A DNA stretch of 64,000 nucleotides from assembly GCA_016946835.1 (NCBI GenBank), contig JACVTC010000034.1, forward strand, positions 310,001 to 374,000. The letters run 5' to 3'. The notes below the pieces were generated by a model, which was not told the DNA's origin, did not search any database, and saw only the letters and a program-made list of their open reading frames with translations. Source of the stretch: Neocallimastix lanati (nom. inval.) (taxonomy: Eukaryota; Neocallimastigomycota; Neocallimastigomycetes; Neocallimastigales; Neocallimastigaceae). The position numbers were made by a program, and so were the translations under genes. Positions within the stretch are counted from its first letter, which is position 1. The number at the start of each line of letters is the position of its first letter. Shown here one piece after another: positions 4,183-50,202 of this stretch.

Positions 4183-4196
4183 TGAGACTCTTAATT
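4183..4196 (-). promoter_or_regulatory. primer-binding site of copia A
   Basis: The plus strand reads TGAGACTCTTAAT. Its complement directly follows the 3' end of the 5' LTR on the element's sense strand. The sequence equals the anticodon stem-loop of eukaryotic tRNA-Lys(CUU), so a half-tRNA could prime minus-strand synthesis. It matches the PBS of elements B, C, D and H except for the last base. Confidence 0.8.
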
Positions 4197-4449
4197 TGTT
4201 AAGAATGTAACCGAAATCTCACAATCTCAATTATGATTATTTTAGTTAATATGACTTTTATTTATTTATATTTAATTATATGAATATTACATAATAAAGA
4301 ATATTACAGTTTAACAAAATATAATAAATAAGATTTATAATAACTATTTAATAACTATCTAATAACTAATGTATTCATAATGTGGCTTATAGTGGCGTAT
4401 TAATATTACAATGTATAATGTATAATTATAATGTAGCTAGGGGTTAACA
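4197..4449 (-). repeat. 5' LTR of copia A (253 bp)
   Basis: On the minus strand it runs from TGTTAACCCC to TTCTTAACA, a TGTTAA/TTAACA terminal inverted repeat, and abuts the PBS. It includes two GTGGC(T/G)TA motifs (4381-4400, plus strand). The partner LTR lies outside the window, so the outer boundary is inferred from the TG...CA ends alone. Confidence 0.7.
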
Positions 4450-4526
4450 TATATAAATATAATAATATTAAAATCACTATCAACTATAAAAATAAAAATT
4501 TATAATTAAATATGATTATTAGATAT

Positions 4527-5084
4527 TGATATACAACTCAAAAGTTCGATGTACTTTTGTTGGGATTTATTTATTAAATTTATTAATTTATTATTTATTT
4601 ATTTATTTAATTTTATATAGAAACTACATATATTTAAAAAGACTATTTAACAACTTTCTTATTCTTTTAATTACAAACTAACTTAACATAATATAACTTT
4701 TAATCTTAACTTTTACTTAACAACGACGACTACAGCCCTTCTCTTAATTCAGAGAAATGCTTTATTTTTATGTTATTTAGTTATAATTAACTATTTAATT
4801 AATTGTTCCTGTGATTAGAATAAACTATTAATAATTATTATTTAAGGAAATATTTAATAACTATATAAATATAAATATAAAATGATAAGAATATAATTAA
4901 AACATTGATTTATGCTATAAAATTTATTATTAATTAAATATATAATTAATATATAAAATCAAGCCACATATTGAAATTGTTGTAAAATCATTAGATTTAA
5001 ATTTGATTTATGACATTAATTTATGTTTGAATAATAAAAACTAATTTTATATTAATTAAGGTTTGAATATTTCATTTTATATCA
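4527..5084 (-). repeat. LTR family E, copy 1 (inverted relative to copy 2)
   Basis: On the minus strand this corresponds along most of its length to 33859-34414. Shared landmarks include ATGTGGCTTGAT, the CTCTGAATTAAGAGAAG block and the terminal ACTTTTGAGT segment. Starts TGATAT and ends near ATATCA. It lies immediately upstream of copia A, which appears to have inserted beside or into it. Boundaries are approximate. Confidence 0.65.
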
Positions 5085-5428
5085 ATATAATAAAATAATT
5101 TACTATATAAAATAATATATTGAAATAATATATTGAAATAATATATAAAAATAATATATGTAAAAAAATTTTTTTTTTAAATTTAAAATTTAATCAAAAT
5201 TTCTATATTAATAACCATTCGCAATACTAATTTAAAATATATTCAATCTTCCTTAATTCTATAATTAAAAGTTCTTCATCCAAACTCTTCTTTAACTTCT
5301 AATTATAAATTAAATCACCTTTTTAAATTGATATAATTCAAATAAAGGATTCTTTAAGTTATTGTAAATAGAAATTTATATATGAAATAAATTAAATTTT
5401 GTAAAAATTATTATACTTCCTCCCTGAA

Positions 5429-5443
5429 CCGATATTTCCACCA
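5429..5443 (-). promoter_or_regulatory. putative primer-binding site of an E-type LTR element
   Basis: The minus strand reads TGGTGGAAATATCGG, identical to 34417-34431, where it follows an E-type LTR by 2 nt. A sequence starting TGG is expected for a tRNA 3' CCA end. Here the adjoining LTR (above 5446) is too diverged to delimit. Confidence 0.5.
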
Positions 5444-5445
5444 AT

Positions 5446-6580: not shown

Positions 6581-6863
6581 TGTTATAAATCACACTTTTT
6601 ATTTATTAAATTTTTGTTCAAGAAAATTTTCTACATAATATTATTTACATTTAAAATTTATATTCCTATCTATAATAAATTTACATTGATTCATATGATA
6701 TATATCATTAAATGATATACGCCACAGTATACATAAATTTATTCTTTATAACTATATTTATTTATTTACACTAAAATTTATTTTATACTTATTTTATATT
6801 TATTTATTTTTTATTAATTATTTATTAATTATTTATTAATTATATTAAAACTTATTTCTGACA
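6581..6863 (-). repeat. 3' LTR of copia C (283 bp)
   Basis: Ends TGTTATAAATCAC...TTTCTGACA on the plus strand. It differs from 10755-11036 by about six changes. It carries the shared GCCACA (TGTGGC) motif at 6721-6726. Confidence 0.95.
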
Positions 6864-6876
6864 TTCCCCCGTAAGT

Positions 6877-7125
6877 TTAATATTCATGGATTTTCGTTAA
6901 TAAAGTGTCTCGTAACGTTTTCATTATGGACCCATTCAGATTCTTTGTCAAAAAGTCAGCTAAATTATTTTGTGATTTTACATACTTTAATTTTATTTTT
7001 TCCTCTTTAACTTATTCTCTAATTTTGTGATATTTTAAATCTATGTGTCTTGATTTTTGATTTATACTTTCATTTTTACTATTATAGATAGCAGCTTTAT
7101 TATTTACATTTATATATATATATAT
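6877..7125 (-). pseudogene. copia C RNase H C-terminal tail
   Basis: The minus strand reads NNKAAIYNSKN, then KSRHIDLKYHKIRE, and ends NNLADFLTKNL...TLRDTLLTKIHEY with TAA at 6877-6879. This is the invariant C-terminus of copia Pol (ADxLTK motif). It is separated from the main RT-RNase H frame by a (TA)n run at 7111-7126, whose length change shifted the frame. One further internal stop lies near 7015. Confidence 0.85.
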
Positions 7126-9051
7126 TTTATATTTATACCTAACTCATTAAGTAGATTTTTTAACCACATACACTTTAGAGCACATTCATTCAAACTATAA
7201 TATTCACTTCCAGCAGTAGAAACAGCCACAAAATGTTGTAATTTAGAATACCAGGTTATAGGCGTATTTCCCATGATTATTAAAAATCCGCTAGTAGATC
7301 TTCTTGTTTCTTCGTCCCCTCCTAAGTCAGCGTCGACGTAAGCAGCTATATTTATATTTTTTGATATTTTTATTCCATAATATTTAGTATAATTTAAATA
7401 TTTAAATATTTTTAAAACATTAATCCAATCTTCATAAGTTGGATTTTTATTCTTTCTTGAAGCCTTACTAGTAGCGAACATAATATCCGGTCTGGTGCCC
7501 ATGGCAAGATATAACAGACAACCTACAGCTTGCATATATACCTTTGGGTTAAATTTTCTATTTTTTAATTTTTTATTTTCTATATTGATCATATTAGATG
7601 CCTTTTCATTTTCGTTTATTTTAAATTTATCTAATATTTTTTCTAGATATCTTAATTGATGTAAAATGTAACCATCTTTACATTTTATAAATTTTATCCC
7701 TACAATGAAGTCTACATTTCCAATATCGCTTAATTCAAAATACTTATTTATTTCTAATTTAACTTTATTTATTGTTTTATTATTCCCTGCTATTAATATA
7801 TCGTCAACATAGATTGCAATAATACATAAAATATTTTTATACTTATCTTTCAGTATGTACACGCAAGGTTCACTTTTTAATCTTTCAAACTTAAGTTCTA
7901 GGAGTGTTTTATTTATTTTATCATTCCAGAGGCGGCCAACTTGCTTCAATCCATATATAGCCTTTTTTAATTTAATATACACTCCTACATCCATACCTTT
8001 AGGAATTTCCATATACAATTCCTCATTAATTTCTGCATTTAGATAGGCAGCCTTGATGTCCAATTGATATATATTAAAATTATTATAAATAGCTATAGAA
8101 GTAATTATTCTCAGAGAATCTTGCTTAAGGGTAGGTGAGAAAGTGTCAACATAATCCACACCATACACTTGTGAAAATCCTCTTGCTACTAACCTTGCTT
8201 TATATTTTGTTATGTTACCTTTATCGTTTCGTTTATAACTAAAAACCCACTTGCAGCTGATTAAATTTTTTTCTTTTGGTACTTCATTGACTATTTCAAA
8301 AACTTTCTTTTCTTCCATATTTTTTAATTCCTTATTTATAGCTTCTATCCATGAGTTTTTATCTGGTCTATCGAATATTTCTTCATAGGTTAATGGTGGG
8401 TCTAATTCTATTGTCTTATTTGTTATTAAGATATTCGTCATTATTTGTTTATACTTTTTGTTTACATTATTTTCACTCTCATTTAATTTTCTTTTTAAAT
8501 TATAATTATTTATTTTTTTTCCTTTATTAAATTCAATTTCGTTAATTGAATTATTTAATTTATTTTCAATTTCATAATTATAATTATTTAAATTTGTAAT
8601 TTCATTATTTTTATTTAAATTATGTTTATTAATAATATTATCATTGCTACTTCCTGGTTTGTTTACATTTTCAATTAAATTTTTATTTTTTAAATTTTCA
8701 ATTAAATTTTTTTTATTTACATTGTTAATTGAATTAATTTCATTATTTGAATTATTATATGAATTATACTCATTATTGCTAATTTCATTTTTCTTACCAT
8801 TTGAAATTAAATTGTTTAAATTGTTTCCTGTATTATTTGAATTTCCTGTTTGTTTATTTAATTGTGTTAAATTTGAATTTTGATCATATAATTTACTTTT
8901 TTGAATTAAATTCAAATTTAAATTTTCATTTCCTGAATAATTATTAATTTTATTATTATTTAAATTATCATTTTTATTATTATAGTTTTTATTATTTAAT
9001 TCAGAATAATTATTATTTTGGATATTATAATTTTCAAAATTGCCATTTGAA
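7110..9051 (-). CDS. copia C Asn-rich linker, reverse transcriptase and RNase H
   Basis: The frame is open from about 9049 to 7110. The first about 200 codons are an Asn/Lys-rich linker with no predicted fold. RT follows: WVFSYKRND, YKARLVARGFSQVYGVDY, SPTLKQDSLR, QLDIKAAYLNAEINEELYM, AIYGLKQVGRLW and catalytic YVDDILIAG, all intact. RNase H has the copia motif AAYVDADLGGDEETRRSTSGF followed by STAGSEYYSL. The frame ends artificially in a TA dinucleotide run, with the last about 80 residues of RNase H in another frame. The RT looks catalytically competent by motif. Confidence 0.93.
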
Positions 9052-10398
9052 TTATTTTAAATGACCACTTTGAGAATTGAAATCCTCATAATAATGTTTT
9101 GGAGAAGAAAAATTTTGTTTTAAATTATTATATATATTATTATTTAATTGTAAATTATTATTATTTAAATTATTGGCTGATTCAGAAAAAATTTTTTGAG
9201 CTGGATACAAAATTAAATTTCTGTTATTCTGTGGATCATAAAAAATTTTATAATTATTTGAATAAATTATATTATTTTGATTAATTGGAGAAGTATTATT
9301 TATATTATATTTATTAATATTTATATTATTTTCATTATTGACTTCATTATTATTAGTATCAATATTATTATATGGAGTATTTATGACTGCACTTTCGTTA
9401 TTATCATTAATATTAATATTATTATTATTATTATTATTTGGATTAATATTATTATTGTTATTATAATTATCATTATCAATAATATTATTGTTAATATTAT
9501 TATTATTATCACTAATATTATTATTATTATTATGAAAACCAATATCATCGTCAATATCACTTCCCCCGTTTTCATAATAAGGAGTAAGATTAATAAAGTC
9601 CGGAGAAGAAGAAGGGGCATCACAGTTACCGGGTGAGTCTTCAAAAAATACAACGGCACGAGAGATAACTACTTTATTATTAGTAATATCATAAATACGA
9701 AAAGCCGAGGGGTTATTATCATATCCAAGAAATATTCCGGGTAAAGCCGAGTTGGTTAATTTGTTACGTAGTTGTTTGGGTACATAAAAAAAAACTTGAC
9801 ATCCAAATACTCTAAATTTCTCGAAGTCCACTTTTTCATCATAAAGAAGTTCATAAGGAACATTGTTATTGATACCTTTATGTGGGATTCTATTATATAT
9901 AAAATTAGCAGTAGCAACTGCATCTTCCCAAAATACGTGATTAAGGTGTGCATCCTCCAACATAGCTCTAGCATTAGGAATAAGAGAACCGTGAAGGCGT
10001 TCAATCCTTCCATTTTGTTGAGGAGAATAAGGAACAGTGTATTCATGAATGATACCGTTTAAGTTACAGAAATTATCAAAGTTGTTATTGGAAAACTCCG
10101 TTCCATTATCTGTTCTAAGATGTTTGACACTTTTATTAAAAATATTCTTCACCTTTAAAAACCAATTATGAAAAGCGTTAAATACGTCACCTTTGGATTT
10201 TAAGAAGATGACCCAACCGAACCTTGAATAATCATCTAAGATAGATAAGATATATTTATTTCCGTATAAAGAGTAGTCGCTAATAGTAACTGTGTCCATA
10301 TGGATTAATTCAAAAGGCTCACTTGCTCTTTTAATATTTGAATAAAAGGGAAATTTCTTAACTTAGATTTTGCACATATCTTGCATTTATATTTATTA
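9052..10398 (-). CDS. copia C integrase with long Asn-rich C-terminal extension
   Basis: The longest frame begins at 10299 (MDTVTISD), but this Met is internal. Coding similarity extends upstream to the zinc-finger CX2C (KCKICAKSK near 10370-10395) across a small frame slip. The core has D in LIHMDT, D in LRTDNGTEF and E in PQQNGRIERLHG. The copia-type FGCQVFFY and PGIFLGYDNN segments follow. The last about 150 residues are mostly Asn, Asp and Ile repeats. The frame ends at 9052 in SGHLK, and the Asn-rich linker resumes one frame over, so a 1-nt indel separates it from RT. Confidence 0.92.
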
Positions 10399-10528
10399 TT
10401 TATTTTTGGGAGTGTGTCTTTTAAACCTTCAATATTAAAGTGACCCTAGCATCACATTTTAACATAGGCTTAGTTACAGATTTATCATAGAATTTTCTTG
10501 TTGTTCCTGGAACTGATTTATAATTCTT
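10399..10528 (-). other. copia C collapsed gag/protease region
   Basis: About 130 bp now replaces what is roughly 2 kb of Gag and protease in elements A and B. Fragments such as VPGTTRKFYDKSVTKPM are readable, but no knuckle or DSG/DTG site is present. This indicates a large internal deletion. Confidence 0.6.
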
Positions 10529-10675
10529 TCATTCTTCGGAAATTTTTTTAATGCTTTCCTTTAAGATATAATTTTCCAAATCTCTTTCTTGTAGTAAAAG
10601 AAACAAATCTTGTTTCCATGATTTAAAATTGGAATTATCCAAGATTTCCAAGGTAGCATTTTCCTTGTTTGTCAT
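10529..10675 (-). pseudogene. copia C Gag N-terminal stub
   Basis: The ATG at 10675-10673 opens MTNKENATLEILDNSNFKSW, a typical copia Gag opening in which a conserved FxxW segment follows a short acidic lead. The frame stops after 48 codons with TGA at 10529-10531. Downstream Gag is deleted. The start is supported by its position about 65 nt after the PBS. Confidence 0.75.
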
Positions 10676-10740
10676 TTTATTCACACTTATTAAAAATACA
10701 CTAAACACAATAAATTATTAACACTCACTTATTGAGTCAA

Positions 10741-10754
10741 TGAGACTCTTAATC
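10741..10754 (-). promoter_or_regulatory. primer-binding site of copia C
   Basis: TGAGACTCTTAATC on the plus strand directly abuts the LTR at 10755. It is identical to the PBS of B, D and H and complementary, in element sense, to the tRNA-Lys(CUU) anticodon arm. Confidence 0.85.
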
Positions 10755-11036
10755 TGTTATAAATCACACTTTTTATTTATTAAATTTTTGTTCAAGAAAA
10801 TTTCCTACATAGTATTATTTACATTTAAAATTTATATTCCTATCTATAATAATTTTACATCGATTCATATGATATATATCATTAAATGATATACGCCACA
10901 GTATACATAAATTTATTCTTTATAACTATATTTATTTATTTACACTAAAATTTATTTTATACTTATTTTATATTTATTTATTTTTTATTAATTATTTATT
11001 AATTATTTATTAATTATATTAAACTTATTTCTGACA
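10755..11036 (-). repeat. 5' LTR of copia C (282 bp)
   Basis: Pairs with 6581-6863. TG...CA ends, with TSD TATTT immediately outside at 11037-11041. Contains the shared GCCACA motif at 10895-10900. Confidence 0.95.
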
Positions 11037-11992: not shown

Positions 11993-12006
11993 TGAGACTC
12001 TTAATC
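11993..12006 (-). promoter_or_regulatory. primer-binding site next to the D LTR
   Basis: TGAGACTCTTAATC on the plus strand abuts the LTR at 12007. It is followed outward by a TCAACT...AGTTGA hairpin (11975-11996). Confidence 0.8.
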
Positions 12007-19750: not shown

Positions 19751-19752
19751 AG

Positions 19753-30100: not shown

Positions 30101-30109
30101 ACTGATACT

Positions 30110-30470
30110 GAAGAAGAAAATACCAATGTTGGATTCTCTGGTAATATTATGGTAAATAGTATTACGCAAACCACAAAAGAAAATGCCAATACAGAATGGA
30201 TAATTGATTCAGGATGTCCTATCAATTTAACCAATGAAATTAAGAAATTAAAAAACACTAAAAATATTAAAAATAAATCAATTACGTATCCCAATGGTAA
30301 ATCCGAAAAAATTAAAAAAGTTGGAAAATACATTGGAGTCTTCGACAACGATTCTTTAAAACTATCAAATGTTTATTATGCTGATAATATTAAAAATAAT
30401 TTATTATCTACACATTATTTGGTTGTTAAAGGTTAAACTCTTATAATGGATTATGACGATATCGAAAATA
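30110..30470 (+). CDS. copia B aspartic protease region
   Basis: Open within 29906-30436. The first third of that frame is out of frame with Gag, and coding similarity begins near ESNSTDTEEENTNVGFSGNIMVN. The active site is WIIDSGCPINLT at 30197-30232 (D-S-G intact). The pre-integrase lead-in KNNLLSTHYLV ends at a stop near 30434. Matches the copia A protease (2295-2830) throughout. Confidence 0.85.
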
Positions 30471-31530: not shown

Positions 31531-32034
31531 GAATATTCCAATAATAATTCAAACAATAATAATTCACAATTCATGAATAATCAAAATTTAAATAATAATT
31601 TAAACAATAATAATTCTAATACCAGGATTATTAATATAAATAATTCAAGTAATAATAATTCAGAAACTACAGATATTAATAACAATAATACTGAAACAAT
31701 AATTAATAATGATAATAATAATAAAAATAATATTACAAATAAACAAAACATTATTGAAAATAATGAAAATAATAACAAAAATAATAATAATATTAACACC
31801 AATGATAATAATCAAATTAAATCAGATAATGACAATAGTGAAACAAATACTAATAATAAAAGAAAATTTATTAATGAAAACAATAATGATAACAAAAATA
31901 ATAATGACGTTATTAAAGAAAATAATTTAAATCCAAAAAAGAAAAACAAAATTTTAAATATCAAACTTAATAATCCATCAAATTATGAGGAGCAATTAAC
32001 TCTAAAGAATCAAAACAATGGAAACAAGCTATAA
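31515..32034 (+). CDS. copia B Asn-rich linker
   Basis: The open stretch 31573-32034 encodes about 150 residues dominated by Asn with Lys, Ile and Asp, ending NPKKKNKILNIKLNNPSNYEE. The PSNYEE motif marks the entry to RT, as in copia A (PKSYDEAINS). The frame ends at 32034 through a small indel. It is low complexity and has no enzymatic motif. Confidence 0.75.
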
Positions 32035-32948
32035 ACAAAGAGCTTAATAACATGTATAATCAAAGAGTTATGGAAATAATTAATAATGTTCCTCGCAATG
32101 CAATATTAATTGATGGAAGATGGATATTTACAACAAAAGATGATAGAACGAAAAAGGTAGGATGGGTAGCTAAAGGTTTTAGACAAAGAGAAGGCATAGA
32201 TTATAATAACACATACTCTCCAGCAGTACAAGCTGATAGTCTTAGAATAACAATTGCAATAGCTGCCAGATATAATTGGAAATTAAAACAATTAGATATA
32301 AAAGCATCTTACCTGAATGCTAAATTAAAAGAAAAAATTTACATTATAATTCCAAAAGGAGATAAAAATTATAACAAAGGTAAATATTGGTTATTAAAGA
32401 AAGCTCTCTATGGTTTGAAACAAGCTGGTAGAGAATGGAATAAAGAAATTTCTAAATTCTTAATAAGTATAGGACATAAACAAATTAATACTGATAAATT
32501 TACTAAATATAAAAATAATAAATTATCATTAGTATTAAGTCTATATATTGATGATATTTTACTTACAGGTACTAATGAAGAAATAAAATATGTATCAAAC
32601 AAACTTCATAATAAATATCAAATTTCGAAATATACAAATGCAAATAAAATAATTTGAATAAACATTTTAAAAACAGATCAAGGATACAAAATTAATCAAA
32701 TAGACTATATAGAAAAATTAATTAAAAAATATAACATGAAGAAAATAAAACCAATCAAATATCCTAGTAGGAAAATACCTAAGGATGAAAGAGAAAATCT
32801 CCAGAAATTAACAAAACAATTTATAAATCAATTATTGGAGAATTATTATTTATAGCTACTAAAACAAGCCCGGATATAGCCTTTGCTATTAATCAAGTAG
32901 CAAGACATTCAGAAAATCAAAGAAAAAGTAGACTTAAAATCAGCTTAT
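32035..32948 (+). CDS. copia B reverse transcriptase
   Basis: The open stretch 32052-32657 reads ILIDGRWIFTTKDDRTKK, WVAKGFRQREGIDY, SPAVQADSLR, QLDIKASYLNAKLKEKIYI and ALYGLKQAGREW. The catalytic YIDDILLTG is at 32544-32570 (usually YVDD). A TGA at 32655-32657 replaces a Gly present in copia A (NKIIGIN), and coding continues (LKTDQGYKINQIDYIEKLI) in the same frame, then shifts near 32810 (ATKTSPDI). All palm motifs are present, but the frame is broken at the thumb. Confidence 0.9.
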
Positions 32949-33470
32949 ATGATTCTACAATACTTAAATTCAACAAAAGAAAAATCAATTCATTATATAG
33001 GAGATACAAACATATCCGTTTATAGTGATGCAGATTTTGCTGAAGATGAAGAAACAAGAAAATCAACAACAGGATATATATATCATAATGGAAATAGTCC
33101 TATTTCTTGGAAATCACAACTACAAAAATGTGTAACTTTATCAACAGCAAAAGCAGAATTTCGCCTAACTGAATGTACTAAGCATGGTATGTGGCTACAA
33201 AAATTATTGAGAGAAATTTTCAAAAACAATTTTATTTTGAAAATAAATATTGACAATAAATCTTGTAAATACATCGCCAAAGATGAAAATTCTAATGCAA
33301 GATGTAAACATATATGTAAACATATGAATATCAAATAAATACTTAAATGAAAAAATAAATGAAGGAAAAATAACATTAAGATATGTTGAAACAAATAATA
33401 TGGTAGCAGACTCATTAACAAAAAATATTTCAGTACCAAAAATGAAAATTTTTACAGATTTTATTTTCGA
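32949..33470 (+). CDS. copia B RNase H
   Basis: The open stretch 32949-33338 has VYSDADFAEDEETRKSTTGYI (copia RNase H core), NGNSPISWKSQLQ, and STAKAEFRLTECTKHGMWLQ. A short tandem duplication of GTAAACATAT near 33304-33330 (CKHI CKHM) shifts the frame. The C-terminus (ETNNMVADSLTKNIS, then MKIFTDFIF) continues to about 33470 in another frame and matches the copia AD-LTK signature. Poly-A/poly-T and the PPT follow. Confidence 0.88.
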
Positions 33471-33534
33471 ATAAAAAAATTTAATATAAAAAAAAAAAAA
33501 AAAAATTTTTTTTGTAAATATGTTAATGCAAATG

Positions 33535-33543
33535 TAGGGGGAA
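33535..33543 (+). promoter_or_regulatory. copia B polypurine tract
   Basis: TAGGGGGAA directly upstream of the 3' LTR. Confidence 0.8.
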
Positions 33544-33816
33544 TGTTAAGTATTATGAATGTCATAAGAACATTATACACAACATATATAATACGCCTCA
33601 TAAAGCTTCATTAGCTATAACTTTATTTTGTATATAGTTATTTTATAGTTTAATTAAAATTAAACTATTAATTTGGTTATTGATTTTATAATAATAAAAA
33701 ATATATATTTTTTTATATAACAAATAAAAATAAATAAATAAATAAAATTATATAAATATATACAAATCACCATATGTGCCATATTTTCGTGTTCTCTGAA
33801 TTCACAACCTTGAACA
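33544..33816 (+). repeat. 3' LTR of copia B (273 bp)
   Basis: Direct copy of 28745-29020, with TSD ATTTC outside. Confidence 0.95.
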
Positions 33817-38350: not shown

Positions 38351-38606
38351 TAATAAAATTTGATTTTATTTAAAAGTTTATTTATTAATTAAATTTAATA
38401 AAAAGGTAATTACAATGTTTTAACATAAAATAAAGTCATGCTTTTTATATACATTTGAAATGTGGCGTAATTAAATAAAACATTTTTCTATTACTAATGT
38501 ATTACTAATATTTTGATCATGTGAGTAATGATGAATTATTCTAAAATTCTATAATTATTAATAATAAAACTAAAATTACTAATTAAATTATTTTCATATT
38601 TTAACA
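38351..38606 (-). repeat. 3' LTR of copia H (256 bp)
   Basis: Plus-strand ends TAATAAAATTTG and ATTTTAACA. Contains AATGTGGCGTAATTAA at 38459-38474. Confidence 0.93.
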
Positions 38607-38618
38607 TGCATTCTCAAA

Positions 38619-39317
38619 TTAAATTATTTTAAAAAAAATTTTATTTGCAAATTTAGTCATTTTAGTACCGTTAACATTTTTGGTTAATATATCAGATAAC
38701 ATTTCATTTGTATTTATATATTCTAATTTTATAATGTTCTTTTCAATGAGGTCTTTATTAAAATAATATTTTATTTCTATATGTTTTAATTTTGTGTTTA
38801 AATCTCCGTTTTCCATGCTTGTTTTACTAGAAAGGTTATCAGTGTATAATTTTATTGGCTTGCTAAATTTAAATATTTCGTTTAATATATTTTTATACCA
38901 TAAAATCTTTTTTATGCATTCTGAAGTGCTGATGTATTCAGCTTCCGCAGTTGATGTTGCAACTATAGTTTGCTTTTTAGATGACCAGCTTATTGGAGAA
39001 TTTCCCATTAAAATTATATAACCTGATGTTGATTTTCGATCCTTTATATCTCCAGCAAAGTCTGCATCTGAGTAAGCTATAATTTCACCTTTTCCATCAT
39101 ATTTTAATTTATATTCTTTTGTCCCATTTAAATATTTTAATATGTTCATTACTTTTTTCCAATCGATTATTGTTGGTTCTTCACAATTTCTTGCTGCTTT
39201 ATGTACAGCAAATGTAATGTCAGGTCTTCTGCATTTAGATCGGAATATTAATGCACCAATGTCACTCATAAATTGTTTTGTTAAATTCTTTTTTATTTTC
39301 TGTCTTAATATTATCAC
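38619..39317 (-). CDS. copia H RNase H
   Basis: A 232-codon frame: FMSDIGALIFRSKCRRPDITFA (RT/RNase H junction), then IAYSDADFAGDIKDRKSTSGY, NSPISWSSKKQ, STAEAEYISTSE, and the C-terminus EMLSDILTKNVNGTKMTKF. The conserved Asp and Glu residues of copia RNase H are present. It overlaps the RT C-terminal frame (39262-39636) in another phase, so one indel near 39290 separates them. Confidence 0.92.
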   Translation of the reverse strand: MIILRQKIKKNLTKQFMSDIGALIFRSKCRRPDITFAVHKAARNCEEPTIIDWKKVMNILKYLNGTKEYKLKYDGKGEIIAYSDADFAGDIKDRKSTSGYIILMGNSPISWSSKKQTIVATSTAEAEYISTSECIKKILWYKNILNEIFKFSKPIKLYTDNLSSKTSMENGDLNTKLKHIEIKYYFNKDLIEKNIIKLEYINTNEMLSDILTKNVNGTKMTKFANKIFFKII

Positions 39318-39817
39318 CGGTGCATGGTGTTTTGGACTTCTTAATATTATTTATGTTGAATCTTTCTAATATATTGTTTATGTAGTTCTTTTGTGAAATA
39401 TAATATATGTTATTTTTATTTTTTATTTCGATTCCTAAAATGTAATTTAAATCTCCAGAGTTGGATATTTTAAAATTTTCTTTAATCCTCTTTATTATTT
39501 TATTTGTTTCATTTTCAATCCCGGTAATGATCATATCGTCTACATATATTCCTATTATACATGTTAATTTATTTTTATTTTCTTTTATGAATATACATTG
39601 TTCTGATTTCAATTGCTTATATCCATTTTTAGTCAAAAAGTTTGATATAGTTCTGTTCCATTGACGTCAGGATTGTTTCAATCCATATAGTGCCTTATTA
39701 AGACGCCAATATCCCCTCTCAAAGTAGCGGTCACCTTGTGGAATAGTTATGTAAATTTCCTCATCAAGACGTGCATAAAGGTACGCTGCTTTGATATCTA
39801 ATTGCTTGCAAACCCAA
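39262..39817 (-). CDS. copia H reverse transcriptase, C-terminal half
   Basis: The frame 39636-39262 holds YKQLKSEQCIFIKE, the catalytic IGIYVDDMIITG near 39525-39560, and SGDLNYILGIEI. Upstream to 39817, after a TGA at about 39667-39669 where copia has Gly (GLKQSGRQW), the same protein reads AAYLYARLDEEIYITIPQGD and ALYGLKQS. Palm motifs are intact apart from the stop and one frameshift near 39818. Confidence 0.88.
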
Positions 39818-40881
39818 TTAAATTTTTGCAGCAATAGCGATAATTAATTTGAGGGCATCCATATTAAGTGTAGGAGAATATGTTAAATTGTAATCAATGC
39901 CCTTTTTCTGTCTGAAGCCTTTAACAACGAGTCTAGCTTTGAATTTACTGATATTATTGAATTTGTCCTTTTTAACTGTAAAAACCCATTTTGTAGGAAT
40001 AGCGCTTTTATTTTTTGGAAGAGTAGGAATAAATGTCATAATATTGTTGTTATATAAATTATCGATTTCATCTTTAATGGCGAGTTTCCATTGTTGGTTA
40101 CGAGGACCATAAATAGCTTGTTCATAAGTGAGAGGTGTATCATTAGTAATAATTGAAATTGATTTATTGTTTGAAAGATTATTGTCATTATTTGAGATAT
40201 TGTTGATACCAGAAAATGGATTAGAATCAACTTCAAATACGTCGATATCATCATCTAAAGAGTTGAAATATGCATTCATATTTGTGATATTTTTATTAGG
40301 TGTTCTTGTATTAATAACCTTTTTATTTTTTATATTTAGTTTTTTATTATTAAAATCTGCTTTGTCTAAATTAATTTTATATTTAGGATCAATTATATTA
40401 AATTTGTTTTTCCTTTTTTCTAATATATTTTTAATTCTATTGATTTTGTTACTATTATTATCGAGATTATTATTTTATCGTTATTAGTTTTTGAAATATT
40501 CATATTATAATTATTTTCATTTGAATTATTTTGGTTATAATCTATTATTTCTAAATTATTTTTATTCATATTAAATCCATCGTATTCATGACTATTATTC
40601 AAAATTTCATTATTTTCACTATTTATTTGACTATTATTCGAATTTTCAATATTTGAATCATTATTTTTAAATTTATTATTATTATTGAAATTTTCATCAT
40701 TAGGTACAATGACGGTATTGAACTCGTCACCTTTTGGTTCATAGTCTAAATTATTATTATCATTAGAATTAATTATTATAGGATATGTTGCGGTATCAAA
40801 CTCAGGACTTTTCGTTTCGTTCTCAAGACTTTCCGGTTGCACCAAATAATCTGTTCTGTCATTTATAAAATTCGTCATGTC
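39818..40881 (-). CDS. copia H Asn-rich linker and RT N-terminal half
   Basis: The frame 40279-39818 reads TPLTYEQAIYGPRNQQWK, IPTKWVFTVKKDKFNN, FKARLVVKGFRQKKGIDY, and SPTLNMDALK, then breaks before the DIKAAYL motif. Upstream, 40878-40420 is Asn-rich linker (MTNFINDRTDYLVQPESLEN at its start), in another frame. The linker continues across the two LTR insertions to 41792, reading NEPAGTNNYLD just before MTNFIND. The Met at 40878 is thus internal to Pol. Confidence 0.87.
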
Positions 40882-41752
40882 TGTAAAATATTTAATAATT
40901 TGAATACGTATTTAAATGTAATGTAATGTAAATTATTGTGGATAAAAATGTTTTCCAAATTTTTAATATAAATTTAAATGTATTCCAAATTATTAATTTA
41001 AATGATTTTCTCAAAAATGTATGACTAAATTATTTGGAGAATTTACATCATTATTACTCACTTTGAATCATGAAACTTTGTAAATTAAAAATAATTAGTC
41101 ATAAATTAGTTAAATTAAAATAATCAAAGAAAAATTTCCTTTTCCGTTTGTTTACAAAAACTTGCCGTTTTGTTTATTTATTTTAGAAATATTAGATAGT
41201 TTTAAATAGTTTTTATATTAAAATAATTCATAAAATTTCATGTAATTTATTATTAAATGTAATTACAAATATATAATATTTTAGTTAGTTTATTACAATT
41301 TATTCAATTTAAATTTTAATTTTCAAAAAGTATAAAAAGAGTTAATTTTCAACTATTGAACGATAGTTGGAAAATAGTATAGCATAGAATAGTATAGGAA
41401 AATAGTATAGTATAGATTTTATATTTTATTAATTAGTATTATAACTATTATTAGAATAGTTATTTTTTATAAAACAATTTTATTTTAAATTTTATTTTAA
41501 AAATCTTAACTGCTAGTAGGCTTTCCGGTAAAGGACCCTACGGTACCCAGTTAAGTGATTGTTGATTTATAGCATAGATAAATTTGATAAATAAGAAATA
41601 TCAATAAAGGATTTTTTTATAGAACAAAAAATTAAATTAGTTTTTAGTTTTAGTGTTTTAGTTAATAATTAATTATAGTGTTGATATAATAAAATAGTGT
41701 AAAATAAATAATAGTCTGTCCTCACCGACCTAAGCTATTAGTTTATTTTACT
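40882..41752 (+). repeat. solo LTR of gypsy family I (copy I')
   Basis: 871 bp, TGTAAAATATTT...GTTTATTTTACT, flanked by a perfect TSD ATGTC (40877-40881, 41753-41757). Nearly identical to 47484-48325. Contains a TTTTCAACTAT/ATAGTTGGAAAA hairpin (about 41348-41376) and a GC-rich TTAACTG...CAGTTAA stem block (41509-41555). It is inserted in the copia H linker. Confidence 0.9.
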
Positions 41753-41792
41753 ATGTCTAAGTAATTGTTTGTTCCTGCAGGTTCATTTCCCA

Positions 41793-42980
41793 TGTCACGA
41801 ATACTAGTGGATTGAAGTTAAAATTCATTATTAGATCAATTGAAATTTAGTTTAGTTATTGACAAAAAATTATTTTAATTCGATTTAATTATAAAAATAA
41901 ATATTAGAAACATTAAAGAATTAGAAACCAAAGGGTTTGGACTTATTTATTAAAGATAATTTAATTTAATTTAACCCTTAAGAATTTGATAAAAATAACA
42001 TGAAGGAAAACAACGATAACTCAACAAATAATGGAAATATTGTATTGATATTCCCACTAAAAATATATTCATTAGAAAGCTACGGTCGAGAACTACAACA
42101 TATGTTAAAATCAACCTTATTGGACAACTAGATAACGAGATATTAGACTTTAAAGATATTTAAATATAAAAATACAATTTAATTATTTAATTAAGACCCT
42201 AAATTATTAATTAAGAAATTTATATTAGATAAATCTCTTAACTTGGAAATTATATTATTAATTTTTATTATTAATTGAAAAATACAGAATTAGTTATTAG
42301 TAATAGTTTTATATTATTTTAAACAAGTTTTATAAGTTTTATATTTTATTATTATATATTTTTATTCAATTATTTCTAAAAGATTCTAAGGAATTCTTTA
42401 TCATTCTAAAGATTTCCGAAAGAGAATTTTTAATTAGTTTTAATATTTTATTTTTTTTTTATATTTTATTATTAAATTAGTTTTATTATTAAATTGTTTT
42501 ATGAATAATTTATATAGTTATTTTATTAAAAGATTCTTATCAATATTATTTTATTATTATATTTTATATAGTTTATATACATGTATGAATATTTTAAGAT
42601 TAAAATGTATTAATTAATTATATTGTTAATATTATTTTAGTTTAGTATAAAAAGGATTTGAAAATCCATATTTTGAATTCTTTGTAAGATTATTAATTTA
42701 ATGTATCAACATAAAGTTAATGAATTAATTATAACAATAAATAATTTTTTTATATTAATCTTAGTTAAAGTTTATTATTAAAATATATATTAAATAAAGT
42801 TCTAATAAAACATAAACCTTAAATATTGAAATCTTAATTATAAAACTCTGTGTGTGTTATTTATTATTTAAATTTAATTAAATTGTTATAATTAATAAAA
42901 ACATCTTGACCTGACCAATTTAACCCAAACTAGGAAAGATATAGCAAGAATCTTACCTAAACACTCAATTTAATTTTACA
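41793..42980. mobile_element. insertion M, 1188 bp, TSD TCCCA
   Basis: Begins TGTCACGAATACTAGTGG and ends CAATTTAATTTTACA, flanked by TCCCA at 41788-41792 and 42981-42985. TG...CA ends plus a 5-bp TSD suggest a long solo LTR. It interrupts the copia H Pol frame exactly (VVFMG | NEPAGT). A short frame from 41999 (MKENNDNSTNNGNI) is seen inside but is not recognised. Confidence 0.8.
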
Positions 42981-43922
42981 TCCCATGAAGACTACTTCCA
43001 TTACAAAATGAATAGATTTGTCGATTTTATCCATGATGATATAACTATTTGAACTTTTGTCATAACCAAGATGGATTCCTTCATTAGCATTAGATTGAAA
43101 TTTGGGTTTATTTTGAGTTAATACTTTATAAAATGCCTTACAACCGAATACTTTAAAATATTTTAAATTGACCTTCTCATTATGGAAAATTTCATATGGT
43201 ATTGAGAAATTAATTCCAGAGTGTGGAGTAAAATTATAAATGAAATTAGCATGTTTTGCAGCAAAATCCCAGAATTCAAGATCTAATTTACTCCATTGTA
43301 ATAATGATTTTGTAATCTTTATTAGTGTTTGATTGAAACGCTCAATCAAACCATTGTTTTCATGGCTATATGGAGGAGAATATAACTTAATTATACCATT
43401 CTTTTCACAATATTTATGAATTTTGTCGTTGTTATATTCCTTTCCCTTGTCAGTTTTAAAATATTTAATATTTTTATTATCAAAATGATTTCTGATTAGT
43501 TTAAAGAAATTAATAACTTTGTTTGGTACGTCGGATTTATTTTTTAAAGGGAAGATCCATGATTTTCTTGAGTATTCATCAATTATGGTTAATATATATT
43601 TATTTCCTGAAAGGGTGTCTTCAATAGGACCTATGAGGTCTGAGTGTATGACCTCTAATATTGCATCAGCTCTTGGGGGCGTCTTATTATGTGGTTTTCT
43701 TTTAATCTTGGTGATTTCACAGTCTTCACAATTTGCTTTTGAAATATTTGGTAACTTCAAATGGTTTTTTATATTATCGAAATTAGTATGACCAAAGCGA
43801 TTGTGCCAAATCTTTTTGCTTTCTTCATTAAGGTTATTAATGTTTAATAAAGTTTTATTATTTTCAATATTTTTAATTATTAATTTTACTGTATTTGTAT
43901 TGCTTTTTTTGATATTTTCCAA
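42957..43922 (-). CDS. copia H integrase
   Basis: A 321-codon frame. The zinc finger is IWHNRFGHTNFDNIK with CEDCEITKIKRK. The core has D in EVIHSDLIGP, D in YFKTDKGKEY and E in NNGLIERFNQ, so the triad is intact. The C-terminal part has FWDFAAKHANFIYN, SIPYEIFHNEKV, FKVFGCKAF and GIHLGYDKSSNSYIIMD. The true coding sequence ends at EVVFMG (about 42981). The last residues and the stop come from insertion M, so the frame's end is an artefact of that insertion. The first Met is internal to Pol. Confidence 0.93.
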   Translation of the reverse strand: MENIKKSNTNTVKLIIKNIENNKTLLNINNLNEESKKIWHNRFGHTNFDNIKNHLKLPNISKANCEDCEITKIKRKPHNKTPPRADAILEVIHSDLIGPIEDTLSGNKYILTIIDEYSRKSWIFPLKNKSDVPNKVINFFKLIRNHFDNKNIKYFKTDKGKEYNNDKIHKYCEKNGIIKLYSPPYSHENNGLIERFNQTLIKITKSLLQWSKLDLEFWDFAAKHANFIYNFTPHSGINFSIPYEIFHNEKVNLKYFKVFGCKAFYKVLTQNKPKFQSNANEGIHLGYDKSSNSYIIMDKIDKSIHFVMEVVFMGCKIKLSV

Positions 43923-44477
43923 TTACTTTTCCGGATTTTGTTTTTAAAATGATACCTGCCTTTCCATTAACATTAGTTATTATTCCTTCGATCTTGTTTT
44001 CTTCCTCCAGTTTTATACCGCTAATTAAATTTTTATTTGTTTCTTTTGAAAAGTATACCTTTTTAAGTTCTATAAGATTATTATTAATTAATCATTTATA
44101 TGTCCCATATCCTTCAAACTTGCAAGTAGTTTTATTTGGGCACATCATAGTTATTAATTTTCTTAAAATTGTCTAAAATATTTTTATTATTTGTTATATA
44201 TTCACTGGCACCGGTATCATAGGTCCAACAACTTTCATTATTTCTATTAGTTTCAATATTATGTATAATTTTATTTATTTTACTATTATTTATTTCAACG
44301 TTAGTCTTGGGATTCGGACCAGTGACACTATCTTCATATTTCAATTTGATAATTGAATTTTGGTTAATTTTGTTTTCGTCATTAGTAGGGTTCGAAACAG
44401 TGACATCTTCTTGGGTTAAGTCGTCATTTTCCATCTTACCATACTCGCTAACTTCTTCATCATCTGTAAGAATCTAT
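43923..44477 (-). CDS. copia H aspartic protease region
   Basis: The frame 44434-44132, open further to 44477 (LTDDEEVSEYGKMENDD), contains ESCWTYDTGASEYITNN, the D-T-G active site of copia protease. After a break near 44131 the pre-integrase region (ELKKVYFSKETNKNLISG) runs to 43923. The upstream end is cut by gypsy element I at 44478; before insertion it joined gag at 49161. Confidence 0.85.
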
Positions 44478-45448
44478 TGTAAAATATTTAATAATTTGAA
44501 TACGTATTTAAATGTAATGTAATGTAAATTATTGTGGATAAAAATGTGTTCCATATTTTTAATATAAATTTAGATGTATTCCAAATTATTAATTTAAATA
44601 ATTTTCTCAAAAATTAATGACATAATTATTTGGAGAATTTACGTAACAATTACTCAGTTTGAATCACGAAACTTCATAAATTAAAAAATAATTAGTTATT
44701 AATTAGTTAAATTAAAATAATTAAAGAAATATTGCCTTTTCCGTTTGTTTACAAAAACTTGCCGTTTTGTTTACTTGTCTTTTAAATTATAGAAATTCTA
44801 AAAATAAAAATAGCAAGTTGTGGTTTAGTAAATTGGTTTTCACAACTTGGCAAAATTTAAATTAAATAAATGGATAGAATATATTTAATCATATAATTAA
44901 TGAATTAAACTCTAAATTTTCTTCATAGAAAATTTTAGAAAAATTAGGTAGTTTTAAATAGGATTTATATTAAAATAATTCATAACATTTCATGTAATTT
45001 ATTATATAATGTAATTGATAATATAAAATAATATTTTTATGTAATTTATTAAAATTTATTTTGATTTAAAACTTTATTTTGAAAAAGTATAGAAAGAGTT
45101 AATTTTTCAACTATTGAATGATAGTTGGAAAATCGTATAGTAATAGGTAAATCTAAAATCATTATTAGTTTCGTAACTATTATTAGAATAGTTATTTTCT
45201 TATAAAACAATTATATTATAGTTTGTAAAACCTTAACTGCTAGTGGGAACTCCGGAAAGGACCCTGCGTTACCCAGTTAAGTGGTTGTTGAAAATTAATT
45301 AATAAATAAAATAAAATAAATAAATAAAAGAAATTAAAAAAAAAAAAAAATAATTAATTAATTAATAGAGGTTTAGAATATAGTGTTATTTGTGTAGTAA
45401 AGTTAGTATATAGAATAGCCACAAACCTAAACTAAATAAGTATTTTAT
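44478..45448 (+). repeat. element I 5' LTR
   Basis: Starts TGTAAAATATTTAATAATTTG. Shares the CCGTTTGTTTACAAAAACTTGCCG box, the CAACTATTGAA(T/C)GATAGTTGG hairpin and the GC-rich stem block (45236-45283) with 40882-41752. Elsewhere it is diverged and has extra poly-A sequence. The 3' boundary (ATTTAACA) is approximate. Confidence 0.75.
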
Positions 45449-45534
45449 TTAACAATTTTCCAACTCTTTAGAATAGAAGTTTACCTTTGTGGCATTGTTA
45501 AGAAATAAGGAATAGTTAATATTTTTAGTTTTAG

Positions 45535-45573
<39 letters not shown>

Positions 45574-45672
45574 GTTTAAAATTAGTAATAGTAAATAAAG
45601 GTGGATTTAATAATTAGTTATAGTATAGTATATAGTTTATTGTTTAGTAATAATAATAGGTTTATAAATAGA

Positions 45673-46495
45673 ATGGAGTATTTGAGAATCAACAACCAAG
45701 ACCCAGGAGCTAGGAGAGACTTTGACGCAGTCTCTGAAGCCAGCTCTATGGAAGTAGAAAATGAGGCTGGTAATCATGTCAATACCAGGGCACGCCTCAT
45801 TCCAAAACCTAAGGTATTTTCAGGAAAAAGGAACGAACTGTCAGCGTTTTTAGGCCAAATTTCAAGATATTTCAAATATAACTTAGAAGGTGAAGCAATT
45901 GAAGATGACGAATTCAAGATAGATGTAGTAAGCAGCTACTTAGATGGAACCGCTGCAGAATGGTATGCTGACTTGTGCAAAGAAGAAAGCCCCTTGCTCC
46001 AAAGTTACGATCTCTTTATAAATGCATTAAAAGAAAGATATAAAACCTGTGCCAGTACCGATGTAGCGAACAGTAAGATTACGAAGATAAAAAGCCACCA
46101 TTATCGTTCTCTTGCCGAATACTGTGATCAGTTCGAAAAGGTAGCCAGAGACTCCTCCTTTAATGATGAAGCCAAGATTCACTTTTTTATTGATGGATTG
46201 CCAGCAAGAGCAAAAGAAAGAACAAGACTGATCTATCCCAGGATCAGGAAACTCAACGAACTAATTAATGTGGTATCTGCCAACGCTGAAGAAGACCGTC
46301 GTGTTTTTGGAAATGACCCCATGGATGTAGACCAGAGAAGAATTAGACCTTTTAGCAGAAGTTTAGGAACAAGCCGCTACAGGACTAATTACCAAGATAC
46401 CGAAAGAAATTATGGAATGCCGCCAGCAAATAAATTGTCAAGAATTAAGAAATGTTTTATATGCAACAGTACTAAATCATTTGAAGTCTAACTGT
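45673..46495 (+). CDS. element I Gag
   Basis: Starts MEYLRINNQDPGARRDF at 45673, chosen because the upstream in-frame extension to 45601 lacks ATG. A gypsy-type capsid region runs from residue about 45 (KVFSGKRNELSAFLGQISRY) through DGTAAEWYADL, SLAEYCDQFEKVARDSSF and FIDGLPARAKERTR. At the end the knuckle begins CFICNSTK, and a 1-nt indel near 46473 throws its second half (HLKSNCPK) into the next frame. Composition is notably less AT-rich than the flanks. Confidence 0.9.
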
Positions 46496-47493
46496 CCTAA
46501 ACAAAAGGAGAAAATTCGGAGAAGAGAAAAGGTATTACAGATAACTGTTAGTAAAAAGAGTTTATCTCACACCTACAATGTAGCTATCAAGTTCAGAGAT
46601 GGATTAATCCTAAAGGCAATTTTAGATACCGGATCTGACTTTAACTTAATTGATAGAAAAGTTGTCGACATGTATGGTATTCCAATGCAACGTCTTCGTT
46701 ATGAAAAGAATGTTTTAGGTATTAACGTAAATGGAATTATCCGCTATGACCCATTCCTTTAACTATGGTTATGGGTCAGCATTCTGAAACTATTAATTTT
46801 TACATTTATGATTTACCTGAAGGAATACCCATTATCCTTGGAAATCCATGGTTAAAGAAACACTGCCCAACAATTGAATTTGACCACGGAAATATTAGAT
46901 TCAGTTCCCAGTATTGTAAAAGAAACTGCTGTGCTACCGCCGAAGAAATTGCCAGAAGAGTTGAAGAAAAAAGAAGAAAAGAAGAAGAAGAACGCAAGAA
47001 TAAAATCCAATTAGCAAAAGAAATTATTAATTATAAGGTTGAAAATAATAAAGATAATTGTATTAGATTAGATAATGACGATTTTAAAAGTAGTTTAGAG
47101 ATTGAAAAAAATAAAGCATATATTCGTAAAGTATGTAGTAAAAAGGCTGTTATGAAAAATAAGAGTTTAAAAAGAAAAAATTTAAATAAAGATAAAATTG
47201 AAAATTATGTATTTTATTGTGTTTCAAAAACTGAAAGTAAAGATAAAGTTTTATGTGTTATTAGAGAAAAATGTGAAAATGTAAAAAGGAATACTAGTAT
47301 TGATCGAGAAAAACAAGATAGAAATAAAATTAATATAAAAGATGAAGTTAAAGAAGAGATTCCAGAACAATATAAGGAATATAAAAATGTATTCGATGAA
47401 AGAAAATGCGATAAATTACCTCCTCACTGGTTGTATGACTGTAAAATTAGATTAAAGGATGATGTTGACTTATTTTATGGTCCAAATTTTTAA
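46470..47493 (+). pseudogene. element I protease and RT start, truncated
   Basis: The frame 46412-46762 carries the end of the knuckle, then AILDTGSDFNLIDRKVVDMYGIP, the D-T-G protease site. A stop at 46760 is followed by a +1 frame with IILGNPWLKKHCPTIEFDHG, the protease C-terminus. A 130-residue Glu/Lys-rich region leads to YKNVFDERKCDKLPPHW, the conserved entry of gypsy RT. At DVDLFYGP the sequence switches, with a few bases of microhomology (TCCAA), into the middle of the 3' LTR. Confidence 0.87.
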
Positions 47494-48325
47494 TATAAAT
47501 TTAAATGTATTCCAAATTATTAATTTAAATAATTTTCTCAAAAATTTATGACTAAATTATTTGGAGAATTTACATCATTATTACTCACTTTGAATCATGA
47601 AACTTTATAAATTAAAATAATTGGTCATAAATTAGTTAAATTAAAATAATCAAAGAAAAATTGCCTTTTCCGTTTGTTTACAAAAACTTGCCGTTTTGTT
47701 TATTTATTTTAGAAATATTAGATAGTTTTAAATAGTTTTTATATTAAAATAATTCATAAAATTTCATGTAATTTATTATTAAATGTAATTACAAATATAT
47801 AATAATATTTTAGTTAGTTTATTACAATTTATTCATTTTAAATTTTAATTTTCAAAAAGTATAAAAAGAGTTAATTTTCAACTATTGAACGATAGTTGGA
47901 AAATAGTATAGCATAAAATAGTATAGCATAGAACAGTATAGGAAAAGAGTATAGCATAGAATAGTATAGGAAAATAGTATAGTATAGATTTTATATTTTA
48001 TTAATTAGTATTATAACTATTATTAGAATAGTTATTTTTTATAAAACAATTTTATTTTAAATTTTATTTTAAAAATCTTAACTGCTAGTAGGCTTTCCGG
48101 TAAAGGACCCTACGGTACCCAGTTAAGTGATTGTTGATTTATAGCATAGATAAATTTGATAAATAAGAAATATCAATAAAGGAATTTTTTATAAAACAAA
48201 AAAATTAAATTAGTTTTTAGTTTTAGTGTTTTAGTAAATAATTAATTATAGTGTTGATATAATAAAATAGTGTAAAATAAATAATAGTCTGTCCTCACCG
48301 ACCTAAGCTATTAGTTTATTTTACA
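47484..48325 (+). repeat. element I 3' LTR, 5'-truncated
   Basis: Lacks about 90 bp of the LTR start. It is nearly identical to I' (40882-41752) but with an expanded ATAGTATAGCATAGAATAG minisatellite (about 47899-47991). Ends GTTTATTTTACA before TSD TCTAT. Confidence 0.85.
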
Positions 48326-48337
48326 TCTATAATTATT

Positions 48338-49154
48338 TGCTAACAAATAATTATATTTTCTTAGTTAAGTTATTATAACTATAACTTTATTTAATTACAT
48401 ATAATATTTATTAAATTTATTTAATTTAATTTTAAATATTCATTAATTTAACAAAATTTATTTAATTAATTTTAAATAATATATTTACAATATGTTAAAT
48501 TCTCTACTGTAACTAATGTATTCTGTATTGCATTGCATTCTGTATTTTATAATGTATTCTGTATTTTATAATGTATTCTGCATTTTATTAACTATTTAAT
48601 TTTATATTTTTAATATAAGGATAAATTATATGATCGAAATATCTTTATTATTTTATTCTTTTATTTTCGATCATTAGATTAGATTGGAAAATCGGTTAAT
48701 TAAGATTTTTTCCAATTACTTTTTAGAAGTAATCGGTTTTACTTAATTAATGCGATGATCGATATGGATAGAATATCGATCGAAAACTTATCTAGGTTTT
48801 TCTATCTAATCTTTTCCTAGATAAGAGATTTGTTAAGATTAGAAAACCCTTTCTTATTTAACCTTATTTTCATAAAAAATTATATATAAGGCTCTTGAGT
48901 TCTCTTTAAGAAATCAAGAGTTATTATTATAAAAACATAGTTATAATAGTAACAATTTTATATTTTTAACTTTAATAAATTAATAAAATATTTTATTCAA
49001 AAAACATATTTTAAAATCAAATTTATACAAACAATTCTTCTCTTACTTCTCGTGTTATTATTATAATTAACTTTATAATAAACTCTAAAGGTAAAAAAAA
49101 ATTTATCTTATTTTATTTTCTCAACTTAATGAATTAGTCGTTAAGTTGTAGTCA
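48338..49154. repeat. repeat J copy 1 (solo-LTR-like)
   Basis: TG...CA ends (TGCTAACAAATAATT to TTGTAGTCA). Contains TTTTCCTAGATAAGAGATTTGTTAAGATTAGAAAACCC and an AGGCTCTTGAGTTC...AAATCAAGAG block; a diverged homologue is at about 58415-59170. It separates copia H gag from protease. No exact TSD was seen. Confidence 0.6.
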
Positions 49155-49160
49155 ATAATT

Positions 49161-50172
49161 CTATTTTGAGTTAGTTCTTAATAGAATTATTACATCATCT
49201 TTTTCAATCCATTCTAAATTACTTATATTTTTTTCAGTAAATAGACAAATATCTTCATAATCAATATCATCTTCGAATTCCATGTTTTCGATATATCTAT
49301 TGTGCTGATATTTTCTATTTAATTTTCTATCTTCTTCATCTAAAAATTTATAATATTTACTCTTTTTATTAAAAATATTATATTTACAGTCCTTTTTAAT
49401 ATGCTTAATTGAATTGCATATAAAACATCTTCTAACTTCTTCTTTATTATAAGGGTGTTTTCCTTTGTAATCACTTCTTTGTTTTTGATTATTGATTCCT
49501 TTATACTTGCGGGTAATTGAATCAATATCCATCGGGTCATCTGGTCTTGTATCCTGTTTTGATTCTATTCTTCTTATATAAGAGGTATCTTCCATATATA
49601 TTTCATATTTTGTAAATTCTCTAATTTTCTTGATATGAGAATTTACAGTCGTATCGTTATCGATTACAATCTTCATTTGTGTACAACTTGGCATGGCATT
49701 ATATATAAATTTCATCTTTTCTTCTTTACTCAAATTCAGATTATTTTCTTCCATGTTTGAGTAAATTTCTTCAATTTCATTCAAAATATTGAAAACTTCT
49801 TTTTTATTTCTTGCTTTTAGGAGTCTTAATTTTGACATCCACTTTTCCATGGATTCATTCAAATCTTCTTCATATTTTTCTTTCAATTTCCTTAAAATGT
49901 CGTAGGCGGTCTTTAAATTTCTAATACTATTGTGTGTTTCAATGTTTATAGTATTAAAAATAACCATTTGGACTTTTGAATCTTGCATTATTGTTTCTTT
50001 GATTCTTGCTTTATCATTTGGGTTTCTTCAATAGCTCAATTACATCATTTTCGATGAATTCCTTAAGGTTCATGCTGGTTAATGATACTTCTAATCTTGA
50101 TAACCAGACATTGTAATTCTTGTTAAGAATTACATTGTAGTTCATAACTTCGTTTTGGTTGTTTGTAAACAT
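49161..50172 (-). CDS. copia H Gag
   Basis: Starts MFTNNQNEVMNYNVILNKN at 50172, about 17 nt after the PBS. A single indel near 50020 shifts into the 275-codon frame 49988-49161 (VIFNTINIETHNSIRNLKTA, LKEKYEEDLNESMEKWMSKL). The UBN2-like Gag helices are followed by the knuckle CFICNSIKHIKKDC (CX2CX4HX4C) near 49400-49441. The C-terminus (SNLEWIEKDDVIILLRTNSK) was originally followed by protease, now 4.7 kb away behind insertions J and I. Confidence 0.88.
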
Positions 50173-50188
50173 TTTTTATTAAGCTAAG

Positions 50189-50202
50189 TGAGACTCTTAA
50201 TC
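50189..50202 (-). promoter_or_regulatory. primer-binding site of copia H
   Basis: TGAGACTCTTAATC on the plus strand abuts the 5' LTR at 50203. Identical to the PBS of B, C and D. Confidence 0.85.

Follow-up and report, generated by a model that had tools for sequence, protein, structure and literature searches.

In the gut fungus Neocallimastix lanati, a window of 64,000 nucleotides (contig JACVTC010000034.1, positions 310,001 to 374,000; the whole stretch of DNA that was analyzed) was found to carry five retroelements, here called A, B, C, D and H, with the same 14-nt primer-binding site (PBS), GATTAAGAGTCTCA. The primer for this site is very probably the 5′ half of the host tRNA-Lys(CUU), ending at nt 40. 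The complementary string, TGAGACTCTTAATC, occurs exactly on the plus strand in C, D and H and on the minus strand in B (coordinates in Table 1), while the plus-strand copy in A is identical at 13 of 14 bases, with the mismatch at the last base. At all five places the string lies on the minus strand of the element, so that the element RNA reads GATTAAGAGTCTCA 3′ of the 5′ long terminal repeat (LTR); in the RNA of A the first base differs and the rest is the same. By arithmetic at the G+C content of the window, 20%, about 0.0003 exact copies would be expected in 64 kb, compared with the 4 observed. For comparison, Neocallimastix californiae is given a G+C content of 18.2% (PMC11003543). When up to three mismatches are allowed the window holds 12 places, with a shuffle mean of 7.6 and 11 of 100 shuffles reaching 12, a count which is not clearly in excess of chance.

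No spacer separates the site from the 5′ LTR in any of the three elements with paired LTRs (B, C and H). Reading of the LTR ends placed CA directly before GATTAAGAGTCTCA in C and B, and TA directly before GATTAAG in H. For A and D the adjacency is presumed from the next two bases, TG, and in the case of D also from the ~72% DNA identity of the stretch at 11393–12014 to gag-bearing loci of one family (L089, L091–L093, L095, L096, L105 and L108). An initial sequence-only reading had located the string at these five places, which agrees with the four exact copies and the 13/14 copy, and had taken it to abut the LTR in all five elements, which the paired LTRs bear out for C, B and H.

The full anticodon arm, TGAGACTCTTAATCTCA, was found at 73 places genome-wide (reversed control, 0), and ARAGORN identified 20 tRNA-Lys(CTT) genes in the 20 of these loci that were read. 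In the tRNA numbering used (nt 26 = G, stem 27–31, loop 32–38 with CTT at 34–36, stem 39–43), TGAGACTCTTAATC is identical to nt 27–40 of the genome's own tRNA-Lys(CUU), and the site is on the strand that would pair with a primer having its 3′ end right against U5. The same arm was absent from the 12 other tRNA species seen, in an incomplete comparison set of 13 isoacceptors. A PBS complementary to an anticodon arm and adjoining the 5′ LTR, as in Hemiviruses, is found in B, C and H. The match of the site ends at nt 26, a position often dimethylated in eukaryotic tRNAs and hard to copy, and this modification would explain the length of the site. The site, its position at the LTR in three elements and its tRNA identity are established by the sequence itself. 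The sequence-only reading had equated the string with a tRNA-Lys(CUU) anticodon arm and had suggested the comparison with tRNA-Lys genes of the same genome, by which that identity is now confirmed (20 of 73 loci). Of its further proposal, a 5′ half of tRNA-Lys as primer, the identity and strand of the string hold, while the half-tRNA and the cut follow from analogy.

In the proposed mechanism, cleavage of tRNA-Lys(CUU) on the 3′ side of its anticodon stem, between nt 40 and nt 41, would yield a 5′ half, and nt 27–40 of this half would pair with the site. The 3′-OH of C40 would then be extended straight into U5, the LTR ending exactly at the site. The leader beyond the site may also match the tRNA D-arm in some families, and in others can form a short hairpin with the site, to be opened by the primer. 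Cut, pairing, packaging and priming are inferred from the half-tRNA precedent of copia and Ty5.

Across the genome the 14-mer was found in 1902 copies, with 0 for the reversed string and ~1 expected in 199 Mb, and 1829 of these lie outside full tRNA arms (73 within). A total of 53 sites was read (28 loci from the start of the genome list, gag loci and the window; 52 exact plus A at 13/14), and clustering at 75% identity separated these into 30 groups by LTR, 28 by leader and 26 joint families; as all but A were picked for an exact match, they show the spread over families and not the frequency of the site. This clustering replaced a first one, which had lumped AT-rich flanks together as a single group of 34 sites; it is in keeping with the earlier view that the LTRs are unrelated. 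A sample independent of the site was obtained by a PF14223 gag search, in which the best 150 of 1212 candidates were scored and 30 loci read. The exact site lies within 1.5 kb upstream at 18 of them and a copy with one mismatch at another; 11 have neither, including L098, with an exact site 1620 nt upstream. On contigs C1–C12, for which the site list is complete up to C12:183756, four of the five gag hits among the 150 have an exact site upstream and the fifth a one-mismatch site. GATTAAGAGTCTCA appears to be the minus-strand PBS of many copia elements of this genome, and probably of most of them.

Some peculiarities of the sites were also observed. Judging from the bases beside the site, the LTR would terminate in AA, TA or AG, not in CA, at its 3′ end in 13 of the 26 families; paired LTRs confirm this for H (TA) only. 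At locus L002 the site is present twice, together with its flanks, in a tandem duplication with a 74-bp period (positions 1501 and 1575), and two sites 77 bp apart on C2 (1906249 and 1906326) may represent a similar duplication.

The flank downstream of the site was found to have two recurrent features. The first is the motif GACTC, which is able to pair with GAGTC of the site and has the same letters as nt 30–34 of tRNA-Lys. It lies 1–6 nt downstream of the site at 555 places (scrambled CAGTC, 0) and near it in 9 of the 26 sampled families. The stem between site and flank beats mononucleotide shuffles (p ≤ 0.05) in 13 of the 26, and the folding energy, compared with that of dinucleotide-shuffled flanks, has a mean z of −1.24; the families may share descent, so that these flank tests are not independent trials. 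The second is a match of the flank to the D-arm at p ≤ 0.01 in four of the 26 families, including A (p = 0.005) and the family of D; the same test with 12 other tRNA 5′ halves gave 0 or 1 family each. TGAGCTA follows the site by 7–14 nt at 172 places, of which ~73 are expected as tRNA genes, leaving ~99 (letters seen for 22 only). In one flank variant 14 of 19 positions match the tRNA in register, seven of them fixed by the finding pattern itself.

With regard to other tRNAs, nt 27–40 of Lys(UUU) were found at 42 places, all on contigs also bearing Lys(CUU) tRNA arms, and the initiator-Met-type arm GGGCTCATAACC at 53 places on 14 contigs, mostly clustered (34 on C24, C555 and C746). Neither arm appears to be used as a dispersed site on the scale of Lys(CUU), and both halves were dropped as candidate primers. 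The tRNA-Lys(CTT) genes themselves recur every ~5.4–5.7 kb in alternating orientation on small contigs (C188, C251, C353 and others; L039–L058), with Ile, Lys(TTT), Gln, Asp, Val and Ser genes nearby, forming large inverted tRNA-gene arrays.

A number of points weigh against a half tRNA-Lys as the primer. The half is predicted here from DNA sequence and compared with an incomplete set of 13 isoacceptors, and the 53 initiator-Met-type places were counted by string. No site lies within 1.5 kb upstream at 11 of the 30 gag loci, and no site is seen at L094 although its gag and LTR are shared with the D family. The complement of the tRNA-Lys(CUU) 3′ end with CCA occurs in 61 dispersed copies genome-wide, so other elements probably use the same tRNA-Lys in the ordinary whole-tRNA way. 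In the pooled test of the extended match Lys(CUU) reached a z of 1.75, fifth of 13 tRNAs, behind Ile(AAU) at 2.85, Lys(UUU) at 2.80, Thr(UGU) at 2.18 and Ala(AGC) at 1.86. An earlier version of the test, with poor clustering and a weak D-arm result, ranked Lys(CUU) third, and a control stretch 120–160 nt away was above shuffles (107 vs. 97.3, standard deviation 5.6). Because of the pooled rank and this control stretch, the D-arm extension is regarded as suggestive for a few families and not as general.

In self-priming, part of the element RNA itself would pair with the site and be cleaved into a primer, as in Tf1, or the downstream GACTC arm would prime, as the GalEa hairpin might; this is decidedly improbable. 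The many GACTC motifs beside the site and the 13 families with stems above shuffles would suit it, and Tf1-type elements likewise have a short duplex at the site (PMC7175516). However, the perfect PBS complement that in Tf1 lies in the LTR, at the 5′ terminus of the RNA, was not found in the LTRs of B, C and H, where the longest exact run is 5 nt, and Tf1-type priming was dropped. The best stems in the 13 families are of 5–10 bp and rarely extend to the end of the site that borders the LTR, no significant stem is found in the remaining 13 families, and the exact 14-nt tRNA identity would be left unexplained.

It is very improbable that the whole tRNA-Lys pairs through its anticodon arm with the priming 3′ end elsewhere, or that the 5′ half ends at nt 39 or 41. 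An end at 41 could be argued because the LTR begins with T on the minus strand in 52 of 53 sites and nt 41 of the tRNA is also U, and an end at 39 from element A, which matches only to nt 39. However, in B and C the CA that closes the LTR lies immediately before the site, and both elements have target site duplications (TSDs); this agrees with a first DNA base copied opposite that A and so with a primer end at nt 40. That the string is instead a leader motif for packaging or RNA structure, its tRNA likeness being due to descent or chance and the primer being another RNA, is almost certainly incorrect: the many flanks able to fold with the site would allow it, but the site abuts the LTR without a spacer, its tRNA identity is exact, and the match extends into the D-arm in four families.

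Domains of the BBD, integrase (INT), reverse transcriptase (RT) or gag type are present in A, B, C and H within the window, and the protein pieces of these four, where alignable, are 32–61% identical (blastp), which makes "lineages" a fair label. The five copia lineages of the sequence-only reading are accordingly supported for these four by copia-type domains; for D no copia domain was found in the window. The Ty1/copia order, with integrase upstream of RVT_2, is seen in A and C (rve before RVT_2 in the direction of the element). Element H has gag and RT fragments and an INT fragment at 42957–43922, also in the order INT before RT, though the INT fragment could come from an inserted element instead. 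In B, BBD is followed by RVT_2, and integrase was not found in the open reading frames (ORFs) scanned. The 5-bp TSD of Ty1/copia elements is exact in C and B, and the flanks of H (ATTTC/ATTTT) agree at 4 of 5 bases. No relative of the RT of C was confirmed by tblastn of viral and genome contig collections. Self-comparison of the window revealed an inverted, partial copy of part of the LTR side of A at 33865–34406, and no partner LTR for A or D was found in the window. Copies with the flank of A and all 14 nt of the site exist elsewhere in the genome.

Table 1. Features of the five elements in the window (strand is that of the element).
Feature	Position	Strand	Description
Element A, coding remains	570..3580	-	Pol_BBD, integrase and start of RVT_2 (copia order INT-RT), by domain search
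Element A, PBS	4183..4196	-	13/14 match to tRNA-Lys nt 27-40
Element C	6581..11036	-	LTRs 6581-6863 and 10755-11036 (97.0% alike), TG...CA, TSD AAATA; self-comparison, LTR ends read
Element C, pol ORFs	7110..10362	-	Integrase, then RVT_2
Element C, PBS	10741..10754	-	Directly after 5′ LTR; GACTC 2 nt downstream
Element D, PBS	11993..12006	-	5′ LTR taken to start at 12007; remainder of D fragmentary
Element B	28745..33816	+	LTRs 28745-29020 and 33544-33816 (94.7% alike), TG...CA, TSD ATTTC; BBD and RVT_2 fragments
Element B, PBS	29021..29034	+	GATTAAGAGTCTCA on plus strand, directly after 5′ LTR; GACTC 3 nt downstream
Element H	38351..50459	-	LTRs 38351-38606 and 50203-50459 (98.9% alike), LTR end ..TA; nested insertions
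Element H, PBS	50189..50202	-	Directly after 5′ LTR

The window also contains a Ty3-like element at 19137–25453 with LTRs 98% alike, whose post-LTR bases, TGGTGGAGAAC, resemble the complement of the tRNA-Ala 3′ end over 10 nt, and a tandem repeat block at 52955–53732 in which long open frames overlap on one strand. Fungal dockerin CBM_10 domains are typical of anaerobic gut fungi. Dockerin-type CBM_10 domains were found to be numerous genome-wide (best 150 of 1440 candidates scored; 0 of 14 control genomes), often in gene clusters (e.g., C106, C112 and C761), and together with the low G+C content of the window they point to a host of this kind.

Copia and Osser-type elements use initiator tRNA-Met as primer. 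Minus-strand synthesis of Hemiviruses is described as starting at nt 40 (PMC1181622), the initiator tRNA-Met primer of Ty5 as arising by an RNase P-mediated internal cut (PMC5371799), and the primer of Osser as half initiator tRNA-Met (PMC6317226). The elements described here resemble the Hemiviruses (Drosophila copia, Ty5, 1731 and Osser; PMC1181622, PMC5371799, PMC8515867) in a 5′ tRNA half cut in the anticodon arm and in a start at nt 40, both being predicted here, but differ in that the probable primer is tRNA-Lys(CUU) and not initiator tRNA-Met. In plant copia elements a half-tRNA PBS is reported as typical of whole lineages (PMC6317226, Mob DNA 2019), and the halves named there are only of tRNA-Met (Osser, Bryco and part of Gymco-II) and tRNA-Ile (Bianca), in contrast to tRNA-Lys here. 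A close likeness is to the FunCo1 copia elements of Pezizomycotina, reported with a Lys site whose PBS, ATTAAGAGTCT, is contained letter for letter in GATTAAGAGTCTCA (PMC5445492, BMC Genomics 2017). FunCo1 is given there as almost entirely limited to Pezizomycotina, with none in 245 Basidiomycota assemblies, and neither "Neocallimastig-" nor "chytrid" occurs in the main text of that paper. The present elements, likened to FunCo1 by PBS, differ in their gut-fungus genome, their 26 sampled families and their flank hairpin or D-arm extension. The sequence-only reading had proposed a switch from the initiator tRNA, which is not supported; as FunCo1 was already reported with the same Lys site, half-tRNA-Lys may be the older state in fungi.

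In fungal GalEa elements the bases right after the LTR form a hairpin with a short downstream inverse complement (PMC5445492), similar to the pairing of post-LTR bases with a short downstream arm seen here. The GalEa Conserved Hairpin Site differs in that no putative tRNA-matching PBS is given for it in that report, whereas here one arm of the hairpin matches tRNA-Lys perfectly. The 9-bp palindromic CHSeq1 of GalEa (mostly CTGATCAGT or CTAATTAGT) is not what was found at the site, which is GATTAAGAGTCTCA and matches tRNA-Lys. It is an unlikely idea that the leader hairpin is a working part, the site being closed by the GACTC arm and opened by the half tRNA-Lys, and that such hairpin-gated sites gave rise to the GalEa Conserved Hairpin Site in a shift of fungal copia elements from half-tRNA to hairpin priming.

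Half-tRNA priming with a Lys site has already been reported for some other fungi, and its site is found here in many families. What is new is the host phylum, the number of families, and flanks which can often form a stem with the site or, in a smaller number of families, carry the match on into the D-arm; literature searches found no report on copia primer sites in anaerobic fungi, though one may exist. As one host tRNA half matches the site common to many diverged copia families, the choice of primer can be much better conserved than the LTRs and leaders are. Taken with the report from Pezizomycotina, this points to a possibly old origin of half-tRNA-Lys priming in fungal copia elements, and the elements offer natural material for asking what fixes the predicted cut at nt 40 and whether hairpins gate primer sites.

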